A stretch of DNA of 64,000 nt from assembly GCA_020846145.1 (NCBI GenBank), contig JADLEL010000051.1, positions 21,578-85,577 on the forward strand, written 5' to 3'. The position numbers and the translations under genes were made by a program. How positions within the stretch are numbered: position 1 is the stretch's first letter; the number at the start of each line of letters is the position of its first letter. The notes beneath the pieces are model-generated. The model searched no databases, was not told the DNA's origin, and saw nothing but the letters and a program-made list of their open reading frames with translations. Origin of the DNA: Pirellulales bacterium (GTDB lineage: Bacteria; Planctomycetota; Planctomycetia; Pirellulales; Thermoguttaceae). Below, one piece after another: positions 4,211 through 42,363 of this stretch.

Positions 4211-7200
4211 TTACGTCGAAATCGGCTCGGGCACGCGCCGCGATTCCGTTTCGGCTTGAGTCGTATTCTCGCTCGACCCCGTAGGGCCGCTAAACACCAT
4301 GTAAAGCACGCGCAGCACCAGCAAACTCATCACCATCGCGCTGAAGATGCCGCCGATCACGACGGTGGCCAAGGGGCGTTGGACCTCGGCGCCCAGACCC
4401 TCGTTGAAGGCCATGGGCACGAAACCGAGACTCGCCACGAGGGCCGTCATCAGCACCGGGCGCAAGCGGGTCATGGCGCCCTCCTCGACGGCCCGTTCGA
4501 GTTCCATGCCTCGGTTGCGCAATTGGCGGATGCAGGACACCAGCAGCATGTCGTCGAGCACGGCCACGCCGGAAAGCGCGACGAATCCGACCGCGGCGGA
4601 GATCGAGAAGGGCATGTCCCGCAACCAGAGGGCGAAGATGCCGCCGACCCAAGCGAACGGCACGGCGGTGAACACGCGCAGGGCGTCGATGAGATTGCGG
4701 TACGTCAGATACAGCAAGCCGAAAATCAGCGTCAAGGCCAAAGGCACGACGACCAACAGCCGTTGCCGCGCGCGCTCGTAATGCTCGAACTGTCCGCCCC
4801 ACTCGACGCGATAGCGGCCGGGCGGCAATTGCACGCCGGCGGCCACTTTCCGCCGCGCCTCGGCCACGAAACCGACCATGTCCCGGCCGCGAACGTTCGC
4901 CGAGACCGTGATTCGACGCTGATACCACTCGCGTTTGATGGTGGAAGGCCCTTCGACGGATTCGATCGCCGCCAGGCGCGACAGCGGAATGCGCTGGCCG
5001 GAGGGGGCCGTAACTTGAACGGAGCCGATCGCTTCGGGACTCGCGCGCACGCTCTCCGGAAGACGGACGATCAAGGGAAAGCGCAACTGTCCGTCATAGA
5101 CGTCGCCCAACCGCTTGCCGCCCAACGCCTCGACCAAGCCGAGCACGGCGTTGGCGGAAATGCCGCAGCGGGCAATCTCGTCTTGGTCGATGCGAATCTG
5201 CAGCACGGGCTGGCCCGTAACCTGTTCGGCGCTCACGTCGGCCGCGCCGGGGATCGATTTCAAAACGCGTTCGATTTCGGCGGCCTTTTTCGCGAGCGCG
5301 TCGAAGTCGTCGCCGTAGAGGATGGCCGCCACGTCGGAGCGCACGCCGGAGATCATCTCATTCATCCGCATTTCGATGGGCTGCGTCATGGCGACGCGCT
5401 GGCCGGGCATGTCGCGGAGTTCTTTTTGAATCAAATCGGTCAATTCGTTTTGGGTTGCCGCGCGCTTCCACCGCTCGCGCGGCCGAAGCGCGATGAAGAT
5501 GTCGGACAGTTCGACGCCCATCGGATCGGTCGCCACTTCGGCGGCGCCGATGCGGCTCCAGGCGTACAGAATTTCGTCGGGAAATGCCGCCAGCAGGGCC
5601 TTCTCCATCCGGGTGTTGTAACGGATCGACTCTTCGAGATCGATCCCCGCCAACCGCACGACGTTCACCACGATGGAGCCTTCGGAAAGCTTCGGAATGA
5701 ATTCCGATCCCAGGTTCGGCGCAATCATCCCGAAGGCGACCGCCAACAGCCCGACGGCGAATCCGAGCACCGCCGGCTTGTGATGCATCGTGAATCGCAG
5801 AACCGGTGCATAGAGCCGCTTCAAGAGGCGAAGCACGAGCGGCTCCCGTTCGTCGATTCGGCTGGGAAGCATCAAACTGGCGAGCACGGGCATCAAGGTC
5901 AGGGAGAGGACCATCGAGCCGGCCAGGGCGAAGATTACCGTCAAGGCCATCGGTCGAAAGAGCTTGCCTTCCACTCCCTCCAGCGCGAGGATGGGCAGAT
6001 AGACGATCATGATAATAAGTTCGCCGAACATCGTCGGCTTGCGGACTTCGACGGCGGCGTCGCGGATGATTTGCAATCGGTCAGAAAAAGGGGACAGTCC
6101 CCATTTGCCGGAACGGCCCGGTGGGTGCTTCGCGCAAATGGGATTTATCCCCTTTTTCGCCTGGGCCAGGTGCCGCACGCAGTTTTCGACCACGACCACC
6201 GAACTATCGACGATCAGGCCGAAATCGAGGGCGCCCAGGCTGAGCAGGCTGGCCGCGATGCCGAACTGCAGCATCCCGGAGAACGCGAACAGCATCGAGA
6301 GGGGAATCGCCAGCGCGACGATCAATCCGGCGCGGAGATTTCCGAGGAAGATAAACAGGACGGCGACGACGAGCAATCCGCCCTCGAACAGATTCTTTCG
6401 CACGGTGTCGATTACGCCGTCCACCAGTTCCGTTCGGTCGTAAACTGTTTGGATCGTCACGCCCGGCGGCAGTGACGCCCGAATTTCTTGGAGTTTGCTT
6501 TTCAACGCCCAGGTAACTTCGTGGCTGTTTTCGCCCATCAGCATGAAGCCCAGGCCGAGAACGGCTTCGCCCCGGCCGTGGGCGGTTACCGCTCCGAGTC
6601 GGATTTCGCCGCCGGTTTGCACGTCGGACACGTCGCGGACGCGGATCGGTACGCCGTCTTCGGCGGTGATGACGATGTTCCCAATCTGCTCCAGGTCCGC
6701 CGTTCGGCCCTGGCCGTGGACCAGCAGCATCCGCGCGCCGACGCGGATGCTTCCGCCGCCGACGTTGCGATTGTTCTCCGCGACGGCCTCGGTAATCCGA
6801 TCGAACGTTAGGCCGTGCTTGATTAAGCGGTCGGGATCGATGCGGACCTGATACTGCTTCTCGTAGCCGCCCCAACCGTTCACTTCGGCCACGCCGGGGA
6901 TCGACCGGAGTTGCGGCTTGACCACCCAATCGTGAATGGTCCTTAGCTCGGAGAGTTTTTCGATGCGCTCATTCTCGGGCATTTTCGAGAAGTCGTAACC
7001 TTCGTAGGTCAGGACGTAATGGAAAACTTCCCCCAAGCCCGTCGAAACCGGTCCCATTTTCGGGCGTTCGATGCCCGCGGGGAGTTCCACCGCGCCGAGC
7101 CGCTCGAAGATTATCTGCCGTGCGAAGTAGATGTCGGTTCCGTCCTCGAAGGTAACGACCACTTGGGAGAGGCCGAATTTCGAGATCGAACGCACCATTT

Positions 7201-15222: not shown

Positions 15223-15708
15223 ATGACCGACACTTTTACGAAAGAAAAACGCCGCGCGATCATGCAAGCGGTCCGCCGTAAGCGGACATGGCCGGAGGAT
15301 GTTCTGGCCGCCCGTTTCCGTAAACACGGCTTGCGGTTTCGCCGCAACGTGGCCGACTTACCGGGCAAGCCGGACATCTTTTTTTCCGACGCCCGCGTGG
15401 CAGTCTTCGTACACGGTTGCTTTTGGCACGGACACACACGCTGTGAAAAAGGCCGAAAGCGTCCGAAAACCAACACGACCTATTGGAAAGCGAAGATTCA
15501 ACGAAATCAGCGACGCGACCGCCGAGCCGCCAGACAACTGCGGGCACTCGGTATCAGCGTCTTTACGGTTTGGGAGTGCGAACTATCGGCGACCGGTCTG
15601 CCGAAGCGGCTCCTTACCCGTCTATATTCCTCGAATACGAAAGCAATCTACAATGCCTCTCATTCCGAATGCCAAACTCAAGTTCAAGGTCGCCCCACAT
15701 ATTGTTGA
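15223..15708 (+). CDS. vsr: Very short patch repair endonuclease (Vsr-like)
   Basis: KEKRRAIMQAVRRKRTWPEDVLAARFRKHGLRFRRNVADLPGKPDIFFSDARVAVFVHGCFWHGH. Confidence 0.9.
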   Translation: MTDTFTKEKRRAIMQAVRRKRTWPEDVLAARFRKHGLRFRRNVADLPGKPDIFFSDARVAVFVHGCFWHGHTRCEKGRKRPKTNTTYWKAKIQRNQRRDRRAARQLRALGISVFTVWECELSATGLPKRLLTRLYSSNTKAIYNASHSECQTQVQGRPTYC

Positions 15709-17746
15709 GGACTTGGGGCTTAATCTGTATACGACTCTTCCGAGAGTGTTGGTAGAGTTCGTCGCTAATGCATACGACGCAGACTCATCGTTTGTGAACA
15801 TCAAACTAGACCATGAACGCATCAAAAAGGCCCGTGAGGTCGTAAAGAAGCAATATGAACTTGACAAGGCCAACCATCAGAGTGAAGGGGGGGCTGTTGC
15901 ACCGCTTGAAACCCGTACGCTTCCGGGCGACCTGCAAATCGTTATCGAAGACGGCGGGTTCGGTATGTCGCGAGACGACCTCAACGAAAAATTTCTGTTT
16001 GCGGGCCGTCGTCGCCGATCTGAGGAACCGGCCGCTAAGGGCCGTACCCCTAAAGGCCGCCCCATCATGGGACGAAAAGGTCTGGGGAAGCTAGCTGGCT
16101 TCGGTGTAGCGAAGCTGGTAGAGGTTGTCACTCGAAAGGCCGGCGAAAATCATGCTACAAAAGTGACGCTCGACTACAGCGAACTCGTTAAGAAACAAAG
16201 CGTACATGAGATTGAAGTGCCTGACGAAACGATAGTGAACGGAGCAGGCATCAAACCATCGGGTACAAGAATCGTCCTTTCAAGGCTGCTTTACGACCCG
16301 CTGAAAAGTCGTGCAAGGACTATTCAGGAAGAGATTGCGGATTACTTCGCACAGATTGATCCGGCCGATTTCGTGATTCGACTGAACGACAATCCGATAA
16401 GGCCCGCCACCAGGAACTTGGCGTTCGCTTGGCCCGAACCGGACAGCGTGCTGATCGAGCAGTTTATTGAGAAGTCTCTCCCCCGCGAGGGCGGCGGGGA
16501 GATCAAGTTCGCTTATCGAATTCGTTTTACTGCTCCCAACGAAGCTCTTGAGGCCGAACAACGTGGTGTTCGCGTTTATGCTCACAAACGGCTGGCCGCT
16601 TCCCCTTCGTTGCTTGGTGCTGACACGAACATGCACGGGTTCCGAATGACAGACTACATGGACGGGGTAGTTCATGCCGACTTCATCGACGAAGAAGAAG
16701 CAGATTACATTGCGACCGATCGCGGGTCGTTGCGGTGGGAGTCGCCGCTTCTTTCGGGAATGTTCGATTTTCTGAGCAATGAGATCAAAGAAGCGTGTAA
16801 ACAGTACCAGAAAAGGCGTGACGAGCAATCGCCGAATATCGTCAAGAAAGATGCGTTCACTGTTGCCGAGATTAGCAAGTATGATCTCTCGAAAAAGGAT
16901 CGCCGCATGGCACTTCGGTTTGCCGTCATACTGGAAAAGTCATGCAAGCGGGGAGTAGATGATCCGGTCTATCAGAGCACTCTTCCCCCGCTCGTCAAGG
17001 GAATTGGGCACGGCAATGTTCTCTCGGCAATTACCGTATTGGCCGATCAAAGGCACCCAAACCTCGACAACGTGGTTCGCGAAATGGTTCGCCTTACCAA
17101 GGATGAATTTGACCTATTCATTGGTGCCGTGAAAGGGAGGCTGAAAGGCGTTGAGGCTCTGAAAAAAATTGTGGAACATGTAGATTTTCGGGCAAAGAGA
17201 AATGAAAGGAGAATCCAAGAACTGTTTGAACGATGCCCTTGGATGGTCGATCCGACGTACACGCAGTTCTTAACCGCAGACGTTAGCCTTGGCACCGTTT
17301 TCAAGAGACTCGCCCAGGAACTCGGAATCGGGCAGTACGCAAGCAGTTCCAACAACGGAAAGGAACCAGATCTGGTATTTCTAATCGGAAACACCAGCCT
17401 TTGCAGGCTGGTCATCGTCGAACTTAAGGCATCCAATATCGAGTTGGAGTCAGACCACCTCGGTCAATTGGAATATTATATGCAACGTGCGGAAGAATGG
17501 CTGGAAGAACAAAACTGCCACGGGTTTCAAGTACATGGACACCTTATAGGCACTAAAGCATCTCCGAAGTCACGGGCGCAAGGGACTGTGATCCTGAGAC
17601 GGCGAATTAAGGAATCCGGTCCCGATACGCCCTGGAGGGTCCGGGACTACATGGACGTGCTACGCGACACGCAGGCTGCACATGAAGAGTTACTCGACAT
17701 CTATCACCGCATCGAGAAGGCAGCCGCAGAAGACGACGAGGATTAG
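15653..17746 (+). CDS. GHKL (HSP90/MutL-like) ATPase with C-terminal PD-(D/E)XK-like nuclease, restriction-system protein
   Basis: EFVANAYDADSS (N box), IEDGGFGMS (G1), GRKGLGKLAGFGVAKLVEV (G2); C-terminal EPDLVFLIGN...LVIVELKAS; the upstream extension of the ORF overlaps vsr, so Met at 15653 is preferred. Confidence 0.85.
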   Translation: MPLIPNAKLKFKVAPHIVEDLGLNLYTTLPRVLVEFVANAYDADSSFVNIKLDHERIKKAREVVKKQYELDKANHQSEGGAVAPLETRTLPGDLQIVIEDGGFGMSRDDLNEKFLFAGRRRRSEEPAAKGRTPKGRPIMGRKGLGKLAGFGVAKLVEVVTRKAGENHATKVTLDYSELVKKQSVHEIEVPDETIVNGAGIKPSGTRIVLSRLLYDPLKSRARTIQEEIADYFAQIDPADFVIRLNDNPIRPATRNLAFAWPEPDSVLIEQFIEKSLPREGGGEIKFAYRIRFTAPNEALEAEQRGVRVYAHKRLAASPSLLGADTNMHGFRMTDYMDGVVHADFIDEEEADYIATDRGSLRWESPLLSGMFDFLSNEIKEACKQYQKRRDEQSPNIVKKDAFTVAEISKYDLSKKDRRMALRFAVILEKSCKRGVDDPVYQSTLPPLVKGIGHGNVLSAITVLADQRHPNLDNVVREMVRLTKDEFDLFIGAVKGRLKGVEALKKIVEHVDFRAKRNERRIQELFERCPWMVDPTYTQFLTADVSLGTVFKRLAQELGIGQYASSSNNGKEPDLVFLIGNTSLCRLVIVELKASNIELESDHLGQLEYYMQRAEEWLEEQNCHGFQVHGHLIGTKASPKSRAQGTVILRRRIKESGPDTPWRVRDYMDVLRDTQAAHEELLDIYHRIEKAAAEDDED

Positions 17747-17747
17747 G

Positions 17748-18764
17748 TTACCATTGCAAGTGCCGCAACACTGCCGTAGCTATCGCTCGTCCTAGCCTGG
17801 GCGGCACGCTGTTTCCAATCTGCCGGGCAACTTGCGTAGGCAGCCCAGCAAACGTCCAGGAGTCGGGGATGCTGTGCAGGCGTGCGGCTTCGCGTAACGA
17901 GATCACTCGATGCTGTTCGGGGTGAATGTAACGACCTTTCGACGCATTCTGAAGTGCAGTCCGCAACGTGTTGCAGGGCGAGTCCCATTCCATTCGGCCC
18001 CATGCGTCCGTCACTTCGCATGAGACTTGCCACCAGGAGGGCGGGGCCAGACGGGGTGCTTTTCTCATCACGTCTCGCTTGTCACCGCCAGGGGGAATGA
18101 CACGCATCCGGGCCAGAGCGACCTTAGAGGGTTTTGGAGAATAATGATGGTTCTTGCCGTCAGGTTCGGTCGGCAATCCTTCCCATGCCTGCCGAACAGT
18201 ACGCACCCTTCGTCGTTGTTGCGGCTGAATAAAAATGCCCTCTCGGAATGCCACCGTGAAAGATCGCCGACGGTGTTGAGGAACACCGTAGTCGAAAGCG
18301 TCGAGAACGAACGCGGCAACTCCGTAATCGAGGCCCTTCAGCCGCCGCCCGAGAAGCCGCCATTCGTCTGACTCGAGGAAAGCGGAGACGTTTTCGATGA
18401 CTATGACCTTTGGCCGCATTGACTTCGCCCATCGGGCAACCTCAAGGCATAGAGAATTCCTCGGATCGTCGCTTCGACGAGCCCCAAGAGTCGAAAAACC
18501 TTGGCATGGAGGCCCGGAAATCAGAATATCACAACGCCCTGTCGGTTGCATCCGCAAAACGTCGCTTACTTCTATCTCCGGCCCCACGTTACGAACGTAA
18601 GTCTCGGCAGCCACGGAGTCGATTTCAACGGCATGAATTATCCGGCAGCCGGCAGCACGGAAAGCCTGACTAAACAACCCGGCCCCGGCGAATAAGTCGA
18701 CGACCGTTGGACGGGTATCAATCACTTTCCTGTCTCCCTGTTTGCAGTAAGTGAATATCGACAA
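17748..18764 (-). CDS. DNA (cytosine-5-)-methyltransferase
   Basis: DLFAGAGLFSQAF, ISGPPCQGFSTLGARRSDDPRN, ENVSAFL, QHRRRSF, QIGNSVPPRLGRAIA. Confidence 0.95.
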   Translation of the reverse strand: MSIFTYCKQGDRKVIDTRPTVVDLFAGAGLFSQAFRAAGCRIIHAVEIDSVAAETYVRNVGPEIEVSDVLRMQPTGRCDILISGPPCQGFSTLGARRSDDPRNSLCLEVARWAKSMRPKVIVIENVSAFLESDEWRLLGRRLKGLDYGVAAFVLDAFDYGVPQHRRRSFTVAFREGIFIQPQQRRRVRTVRQAWEGLPTEPDGKNHHYSPKPSKVALARMRVIPPGGDKRDVMRKAPRLAPPSWWQVSCEVTDAWGRMEWDSPCNTLRTALQNASKGRYIHPEQHRVISLREAARLHSIPDSWTFAGLPTQVARQIGNSVPPRLGRAIATAVLRHLQW

Positions 18765-19029: not shown

Positions 19030-21048
19030 TTATTTCGCGGCATCGCAGTTGTTCATCCGCACCACCGCTTCCCACTCGGCGATGGTTTCGCCGCGCGCGG
19101 AGCGGCGTTTTTGGCCGACGTAGTTCAGGTAGAGCCGGTCGGTGGCGCGGCCGCGCTGCATGGTCTTTTCCCCCAGATAACGGGCCGCAAGCGGCTGCGC
19201 GGATGCAATATCGAGAATGCCGTCCACGACGATGTGCTTCGCCGACGGGCCTTTCAGGATTATCCCGCTGAGCGCGGGCACTTCGACGACGCGGTTATCG
19301 AATTGAATCCGCCGCGCGTCGTGGCTATAAACCCATCGGGGATTGTTGAGTATTCCGATCAGACCCGTGGCGATCTCCTCGGTCTCGATGTCCTTAAGCG
19401 CGACCAGCTTTTCGGACGCGGTCCACGTGCCGTCGGCCTGGGAACGGAATTTCAATTCGGCGCGGACGGCGTCGCCGTGTTTCACCGCCAGCGAGGCCAG
19501 GAAACCGTCGGCGGTTTCATCGACCTTCGCGGAGTCGAGCGTTAGCGGCAGCGGTTTATTATCCCCGGCAAGCCGGATCTGGCCGACGCCGCTCCGTTGA
19601 TCGGGGGAAATCAGCCGGTCCATCTTCATCGGCGTCGCCATCGCCATGATCCGCGCGCCCCAGCTTACCGAGTGGACCGCCGACGGCGTGCGATGGAGGA
19701 TGATCTTGCCGGAATCGAGCCGCCGCACGCCGAGCCGTTCGGCCGGGCGATCGACGATCTCCTCGCCCGCCAGTTGCAGCACGAGCCAAACCCGCCCGAG
19801 CTCGCGGAAGACGCCTTCTTGCGCGCCGCGATAGACGATCTCGTCGGGTTCGTAAATCGCCCCGTCGGCGCGGCGGGCCTGCATCTTTTCGGCGATCGTC
19901 GCCGAAACGTTCAACGCCCGCCAGGCGTCGGGGTGGCGGCCCAAGCCCGCCATCAGCGCATGGATGTGCATCCAAGCGGGATTGCGATACATCTCCCAGT
20001 CCTGACCGTTGGGATAGGCGAAGCCGCCGTCGGCCAGCGCGAACCACAACAAGTTCTCGTACAACGGCCGGACATTGTGAAACAGGGCATCGGGGGGACG
20101 GCGGCCGGTTACCCGATAATCGAAGTCGCAGGTCAAGAGCAAATTGAAGGTGGACATGTAGTCGGGATGGACGAAGCCGTGATTCTCGAGCGTGAAATCG
20201 TCGTGCAGGTTCGCGCCGGTGAACTGCTCGGCGACCGTGCGGCCGTCCACCATTTCCCGCGAATGCTCGTCGGCGGACCGCAAAAACGAGGAGAGCGCCC
20301 AGCGCCGCAGCGTCTCCTCCCATTTGCCGCGGCGCGGGTCGTCGGGCATGAGCGCGATCGCCGCGCTCACCGCGCCGGTGTTCCAGGCGTTTTCTTCGGC
20401 TTTCGTGTCGAGCTCGATTTGATGCGGAGGCGTTCGATCGACGAAGCGGTCGGCTTCGTGCGCGACGACGCGGCGCGCCGCGCCGCGCAGTTCCGGCGGA
20501 AGATCGGCCCAGACCATCCAGGATGCCCTCCCCATCAATTGCGCCCAATGGGCCGACTGCCACTGGTCGCCCCACCGTTTGCCGTCGTCGGTCGCGCGCG
20601 TGCCGGTTACGTGGGTCGCCGCCAAATATCGCAGCATCGGCAGGATTTTATTCTCGAAAAGCTCCTTGCGGTTCGCGCCCACGCGCGATTCGTCGAAGGG
20701 GCCGAAGCGGTACAAGAAGCAAAAACCCTCCAGGATCGCCGCGTTCGGCCGGATGTAGTGTTCGGTGCTGCGGCTCTCGGTGCTCAGGGAGCATTGCGGA
20801 TCGGCGGGCCAAGGCCGTACTCGGGGCAACAGGAAACGGGCCTGATTCTCCGCAAGCCGATAGATGCGGTCTTGCATGGCGCGAATTTCCGGCCGTTTGA
20901 GTTCCGGCAGTTTCCAGGGCATGGCCTCCGTGGCGGGGGCGGCCGCCGTTTCGCCTGAGCTCGCGGCAAGCGGATTCCCGGCAAGCATCAGAAAGCCGAT
21001 CGCCGGCAAAGCATAAGCCGGCCTACGAAGATAAATCGCTATTTTCAT
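19030..21048 (-). CDS. Secreted heparinase II/III- or lyase-like (alpha/alpha toroid) protein
   Basis: Signal peptide; DDFTLENHGFVHPDYMSTFN and WMHIHALMAGLGRHPDAWRALN resemble toroid lyase families; family uncertain. Confidence 0.55.
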   Translation of the reverse strand: MKIAIYLRRPAYALPAIGFLMLAGNPLAASSGETAAAPATEAMPWKLPELKRPEIRAMQDRIYRLAENQARFLLPRVRPWPADPQCSLSTESRSTEHYIRPNAAILEGFCFLYRFGPFDESRVGANRKELFENKILPMLRYLAATHVTGTRATDDGKRWGDQWQSAHWAQLMGRASWMVWADLPPELRGAARRVVAHEADRFVDRTPPHQIELDTKAEENAWNTGAVSAAIALMPDDPRRGKWEETLRRWALSSFLRSADEHSREMVDGRTVAEQFTGANLHDDFTLENHGFVHPDYMSTFNLLLTCDFDYRVTGRRPPDALFHNVRPLYENLLWFALADGGFAYPNGQDWEMYRNPAWMHIHALMAGLGRHPDAWRALNVSATIAEKMQARRADGAIYEPDEIVYRGAQEGVFRELGRVWLVLQLAGEEIVDRPAERLGVRRLDSGKIILHRTPSAVHSVSWGARIMAMATPMKMDRLISPDQRSGVGQIRLAGDNKPLPLTLDSAKVDETADGFLASLAVKHGDAVRAELKFRSQADGTWTASEKLVALKDIETEEIATGLIGILNNPRWVYSHDARRIQFDNRVVEVPALSGIILKGPSAKHIVVDGILDIASAQPLAARYLGEKTMQRGRATDRLYLNYVGQKRRSARGETIAEWEAVVRMNNCDAAK

Positions 21049-42247: not shown

Positions 42248-42363
42248 GCCGGCGGCCGATGAGAGACCCGCCGCACCTGGAGATGACTGCTTATGGCTGC
42301 TGACTTTCGTCCCTGACCAGGTTCGCAGGTCCCCATCGCGGGGGCCTCTCATCGGACGCCGGC
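42248..42363 (-). ncRNA. ffs: Bacterial small signal recognition particle RNA (4.5S)
   Basis: Minus strand CGATGAGAGGCCCCCGCGATGGGGACCTGCGAACCTGGTCAGGGACGAAAGTCAGCAGCCATAAGCAGTCATCTCCAGGTGCGGCGGGTCTCTCATCGG; GGTCAGG..GAAAG..AGCAGCC core plus long terminal helix; upstream of dnaX. Confidence 0.9.

Follow-up and report, generated by a model that had tools for sequence, protein, structure and literature searches.

The closest described systems are HgiDII from Herpetosiphon and BbrUII from Bifidobacterium breve, which, like the protein studied here, combine a GHKL ATPase and a C-terminal nuclease in a single polypeptide encoded beside a C5 methyltransferase (MTase). Both have been linked to the target GTCGAC (PMC5867850, PMC5005818). 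A related group, paraMORC3, is described in the available text of Iyer, Abhiman and Aravind (2008) as a GHKL domain followed by an S5 domain and a C-terminal RE-fold nuclease with E-D-ExK residues, the gene having DNA methylase and Vsr genes as neighbours; the same text relates GHKL-ATPase restriction proteins of prokaryotes to the MORC ATPases that act in eukaryotic silencing (PMC2292703). In the accessible part of its description, VcSduA of Vibrio cholerae (Shedu type I-D; Nat Microbiol 2025) loses phage protection on either an ATPase (E27A) or a nuclease (K557A) substitution, and shows similarity to proteins that carry a paraMORC3 annotation (PMC12137116). The kind of system that we describe below is thus already known; what is new is the separate branch to which it belongs.

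The window, that is, the whole 64-kb stretch of DNA analysed here, comes from a host assembly of 5.8 Mb in 224 contigs, which is 94.9% complete and which, judging by gene content, belongs to the planctomycete lineage. Between positions 15223 and 18764 it carries three tightly packed genes, which confirmed the presence of the Vsr/GHKL-nuclease/C5 MTase island reported in the first-pass annotation. The vsr gene (15223–15708, + strand) encodes a very-short-patch mismatch endonuclease of 161 aa. It is followed by the R gene (15653–17746, + strand), encoding a GHKL ATPase, an S5-like transducer, a helical middle region and a PD-(D/E)xK nuclease in 697 aa, and then by the M gene (17748–18764, − strand), encoding a C5-cytosine MTase. 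The ORF finder had opened the R frame at 15299, yielding an over-long protein of 815 aa. Homologues begin near 'KFKVAPHIVEDLGLNLY', around ATG 15653, hence this ATG is most likely the true start. It follows that vsr and R overlap by 56 nt; the overlap that had been noticed between Vsr and the start of the GHKL protein therefore exists, but it does not extend over several hundred nucleotides as the longer frame implied. The MTase gene does converge on R and end within 1–2 nt of it, as had been claimed, since its stop codon (17748–17750) leaves 1 nt after the end of R at 17746. Two starts can be considered for M, TTG 18764 (338 aa) and GTG 18725 (325 aa). The latter is more likely, because homologues, e.g. 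that of L047, start at the equivalent place and a GGGAG Shine-Dalgarno lies 8 nt upstream.

The island looks foreign. Indeed, GC3 is 0.56–0.59 for vsr, R and M, against 0.78–0.83 for the neighbouring peptidase C69, GH116-like glycosidase, 19030–21048 and clpX genes, and 0.74 for a further gene. Judged by this composition, its acquisition was probably recent. As 16 contigs from different organisms (two of them near-identical) have the same genes side by side, their grouping is not due to chance. A V>R><M layout identical to that of the island occurs on a Rhizobium plasmid and an R><M layout on an IMG/VR viral contig, which indicated that the unit is mobile. We found no convincing terminal repeats flanking the island, nor any tRNA or RNA element where it is inserted. 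An empty-site comparison was attempted with the homologues of the downstream neighbour in three other genomes (G022, G024 and G005), whose 1.5-kb flanks had no synteny to the window. Incidentally, the protein encoded at 19030–21048 (672 aa, no Pfam match) has homologues elsewhere in the host genome (55% and ~30% identity) and in several relatives, and a bacterial small SRP RNA lies at 42255–42353 on the − strand (65 bits).

The EFVANAYDAD, DGGFG and GRKGLGKL motifs, on which the GHKL assignment had been based, were all recovered in R (EFVANAYDAD, DGGFGM and GRKGLGKLA), and its N-terminal part matched HATPase_c_3 with 64.8 bits. Residues E35, N39, D42, D100, G102, G140, K142, G143, G145, K146 and T205 were invariant in 36 homologues, and GHKL motifs I–IV of the paraMORC3 definition (E35, N39, D42, D100, G102, G140–K146 and G204–T205) were conserved across these 36 sequences. 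By alignment and model, the GHKL ATPase and the S5-like region span approximately residues 1–345 (15653–16687, + strand). The AF2 model of R (pLDDT 83.5, pTM 0.64) matched, in its N-terminal part, the PDB structures of TRAP1/Hsp90, MORC3, MORC2 with DNA and MutL (1b63), and aligned through its second domain with TRAP1, MORC3 and MutL, as expected of an S5 domain, strand-level topology being left aside; the basic residue of this S5-fold region, at position 313, was K or R in all 36 homologues. Within the ATPase domain, the clade to which R belongs (see below) has a specific insertion of ~40 residues (54–92, with a helix at 54–78) between strands 47–52 and 95–100, which other aligned family members lack or have in a much shorter form.

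The C-terminal domain (approximately residues 506–697; 17168–17743, + strand) bears out the nuclease-like core proposed in the first-pass annotation, as E518, D573 and E590-x-K592 were invariant in 14/14 aligned clade members. This domain modelled well on its own (pLDDT 86.9), yet a Foldseek search of the isolated model against the PDB gave no significant match (best E 0.13), the insignificant ones including Shedu (8ti8), BstEII, EcoO109I and nickases. The nuclease assignment consequently rests on the E-D-ExK sequence motif, the RE fold itself having no significant PDB support. A viral fold search returned generic GHKL proteins only, e.g. RIIA and Hsp90. When solved structures were searched by sequence, none of a GHKL-ATPase restriction protein came up.

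In an HMM search, the top family for R was NCBIfam NF050001 (BbrUII/HgiDII), with a match across both the ATPase and nuclease regions (E = 9e-63); HtpG scored 21 bits, and no MutL family was listed at E up to 1. The ATPase thus does not group with housekeeping repair proteins, and the proposed relation to BbrUII/HgiDII in a GHKL restriction-modification setting stands, in line with the adjacency and co-divergence of M described below. The R score is nevertheless 213 bits, below the curated equivalog cut-off of 550 bits, whereas a homologue from phage PhiR44_1, termed ParaMORC3 by its depositors, reaches 751 bits. By this measure R is a distant relative of BbrUII/HgiDII and not a member of the equivalog, and neither their specificity nor even their activity can be transferred to it. 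The island differs from the HgiDII type in other respects as well. Its M is 31% identical to that of the true family member from PhiR44_1, with a different recognition region; its clade has the ~40-aa insertion in the ATPase domain; and the HgiDII-type relatives seen here are mostly tandem M-R, whereas the clade is mostly convergent R-M. R fits paraMORC3 as Iyer et al. define it, with the same domain order, E-D-ExK residues and methylase and Vsr neighbourhood; in the available text of that article, the PVC/alphaproteobacterial branch, its paired MTase type and a target are not among what is described (PMC2292703).

M matched Pfam PF00145 (DNA_methylase, 189 bits) and TIGR00675 (150 bits), and has the PCQ, ENV, QHRRR and IGN motifs. 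To place the R-M pair, we relied on a genome-wide scan with R. It yielded five close relatives (46–68% identity) in Planctomycetota, Lentisphaerota and Verrucomicrobiota, the nearest island relatives found being in Planctomycetota, and eleven more distant ones (~30% identity) in Alphaproteobacteria. In the R tree, the window and both groups of relatives formed one clade (15 rows, SH-aLRT 100); a corresponding clade was obtained for M (13 rows, support 100/99), and each of the two clades comprises one PVC branch and one alphaproteobacterial branch. M adjoined R in all 16 clade loci with flank available, either convergently (11) or in tandem (5), which shows that the linkage survives rearrangement. 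R and M distances were correlated (Mantel r 0.84, p 0.0002), also within Alphaproteobacteria (r 0.60, p 0.0008). A cognate MTase linked to the nuclease is what characterizes a type II restriction-modification system, and given this constant adjacency and co-divergence, the island is predicted to be such a system. Across the clade, conservation of the target-recognition region of M was about equal to, or above, that of the remainder of the protein, suggesting that one target is likely common to the whole clade. Collectively, these data identify the clade, as far as sequences can tell, as a branch, not separated before, of a phage-defence type that is already known, spanning Planctomycetota, Verrucomicrobiota, Lentisphaerota and Alphaproteobacteria. 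The overall reading of the first-pass annotation, in which Vsr, a GHKL ATPase-nuclease and a C5 MTase make up a restriction-modification locus, was supported, the trio being one of several layouts within the clade.

The Vsr protein scored 134 bits against TIGR00632 (cut-off 97.85) and 91 bits against Pfam Vsr. Aligned with the E. coli enzyme (1cw0), the protein keeps E25, D51, H64, W68, H69, H71 and the zinc-site cysteines, whose catalytic and zinc-binding roles we take to be those known for E. coli Vsr. The two proteins are of the same family and have the same catalytic residues, but E. coli Vsr sits beside dcm whereas that of the island is encoded with a type II restriction-modification system. 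Vsr was near R in only 5/16 clade loci, and in varying positions. It is thus an optional accessory of the unit.

We asked whether the host avoids a target. Of GTCGAC, the sequence tied to HgiDII and BbrUII, only 2 sites were counted in 664 kb against 316 expected (o/e 0.006), making it the most avoided of 64 palindromic hexamers (rank 1) under four expectation models, and the whole 5.8-Mb genome has 38 sites, the fewest per Mb among 61 genomes. No second MTase of the phage HgiDII type was found in the host genome. However, two relatives of the host (G008 and G009), in neither of which an R homologue was found, also lack GTCGAC, and carriers of the R clade retain hundreds to thousands of sites: the closest carrier, G447, has 2277, and neither it nor G451 avoids the sequence strongly. 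Given the common target expected for the clade, the many sites in carriers speak against GTCGAC or, at the minimum, against using avoidance to read out the target. The case is further weakened by the recent acquisition suggested by composition and by the position of one of the 38 sites, the sole one of the window, inside the M gene itself (18696). Thus, we do not claim GTCGAC as the target of the island; we hold this to be a rather doubtful possibility. Across six carriers, no palindromic hexamer was both strongly and exclusively avoided, CAGCTG being avoided in non-carriers too. The host is also strongly depleted in GGTACC, CAGCTG, GGGCCC, GTGCAC and GTATAC. The lack of GTCGAC and of many further palindromes in G008 and G009, which have no detected R homologue, suggests that other long-resident restriction systems exist in this family.

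We consider it probable that the island was acquired horizontally and works as a Type II-like restriction-modification unit. M would methylate cytosine at C5 within a short DNA target and thereby act as the antidote to R. R would be a dimeric clamp, the ATP-driven closure of its N-terminal part, as in MutL, MORC and Hsp90, licensing cleavage, by the C-terminal PD-(D/E)xK nuclease, of DNA not bearing the mark of M. Vsr would nick the T:G mismatches arising from deamination of the 5mC made by M, as a means of mutation control. That R cleaves unmodified target sites is suggested by its relatives HgiDII and BbrUII, and that it requires both ATPase and nuclease by its relative VcSduA; the reading of R as a methylation-guided, nucleotide-gated nuclease comes from putting these two links together. 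Dimer clamping and ATP gating we can only infer, and R may, by the same analogies, be an energy-dependent restriction effector. In the literature texts available, we found no report of an ATP need for cleavage by any HgiDII-type enzyme.

A different possibility was that R acts against phage independently of methylation, as an effector of the Shedu type I-D/VcSduA kind, which would sense phage DNA or proteins by itself, the MTase merely sharing the island. VcSduA has the same architecture, an N-terminal GHKL ATPase and a C-terminal PD-(D/E)xK nuclease, it restricts phage, and its published description likens it to paraMORC3-annotated proteins (PMC12137116). As a matter of fact, the R nuclease gave weak signals for YhcG_C (E 0.008) and for the Shedu domain DUF4263/SduA_C (PF14082, E 0.17), and Shedu was among the insignificant fold matches. 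The SduA_C score, though, is 12.5 bits for a curated cut-off of 27. Moreover, the available description of VcSduA includes no methyltransferase (PMC12137116), whereas R of the clade always has M beside it and co-diverges with it; a self-sufficient effector needs neither. We therefore regard such an effector as unlikely. It also seemed conceivable that the unit serves repair rather than restriction, the GHKL protein substituting for MutL and assisting Vsr when deaminated 5mC undergoes very-short-patch repair. The overlap of vsr with the start of R and the resemblance of the R model to MutL 1b63 would fit, and E. coli MutL is generally known to interact with Vsr-type repair, as also appears in the available text of Iyer et al. 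(PMC2292703). However, what R matches by profile is a family of restriction enzymes and not MutL; R has an E-D-ExK nuclease of its own; and most clade loci have no Vsr, whereas all of them have M. All this makes a repair module very improbable.

The predicted restriction-modification unit might also be a decayed or silent remnant, its genes persisting without expression or without activity. Interruptions occur in two clade members, an in-frame stop near 5880 in L045 and a frameshift near 6404–6536 in L057, be they pseudogenes or assembly errors, and an HgiDII-type MTase homologue of Haloferax volcanii seems to be inactive (PMC5867850). At the island, promoter and terminator matches were no more than expected by chance, with promoters scored against the sigma-70 consensus only, so that no clear promoter match was obtained. 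In contrast, all three frames of the island are open and their catalytic residues intact, and we consider decay quite unlikely. Retaining the restriction-modification reading, we further propose, tentatively and with doubtful odds, that the whole clade is a nucleotide-gated Type II enzyme: an Hsp90/MutL-like dimer would close on DNA and scan for an unmethylated target, shared by the clade and other than GTCGAC, ATP turnover deciding between cut and release. If true, this would set the clade apart in its restriction mechanism from ATP-free Type II enzymes as well as from helicase-driven Type I/III enzymes. With R, M and Vsr forming one small natural unit in a defined clade, with conserved residues that can be mutated and a probably shared target, the locus would make the role of the ATPase in restriction directly testable; in other respects it is an ordinary, probably recent, defence acquisition.

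Several loci among the wider relatives are worth mentioning. In a P2-like Escherichia phage (PV340563.1), a Dcm gene converges on a full HgiDII-type equivalog (751 bits), with structural genes on one side and replication genes on the other. Relatives from Streptococcus and Alistipes, which adjoin an MTase of the HgiDII type, are without the E-D-ExK residues and seem to have instead an unrelated C-terminal domain, possibly TIR as in paraMORC4. On a Pantoea plasmid, a relative with an MTase beside it (L041, 4992–6977) keeps the nuclease D and E but has EFM in place of ExK, and its nuclease may be altered or dead. A broken M-R-Vsr locus lies on NZ_CP119142.1, labelled a Neisseria gonorrhoeae plasmid but presumably a chromosome at 2.17 Mb. 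Lastly, a Cenarchaeum-like archaeal genome has two adjacent R homologues in tandem.
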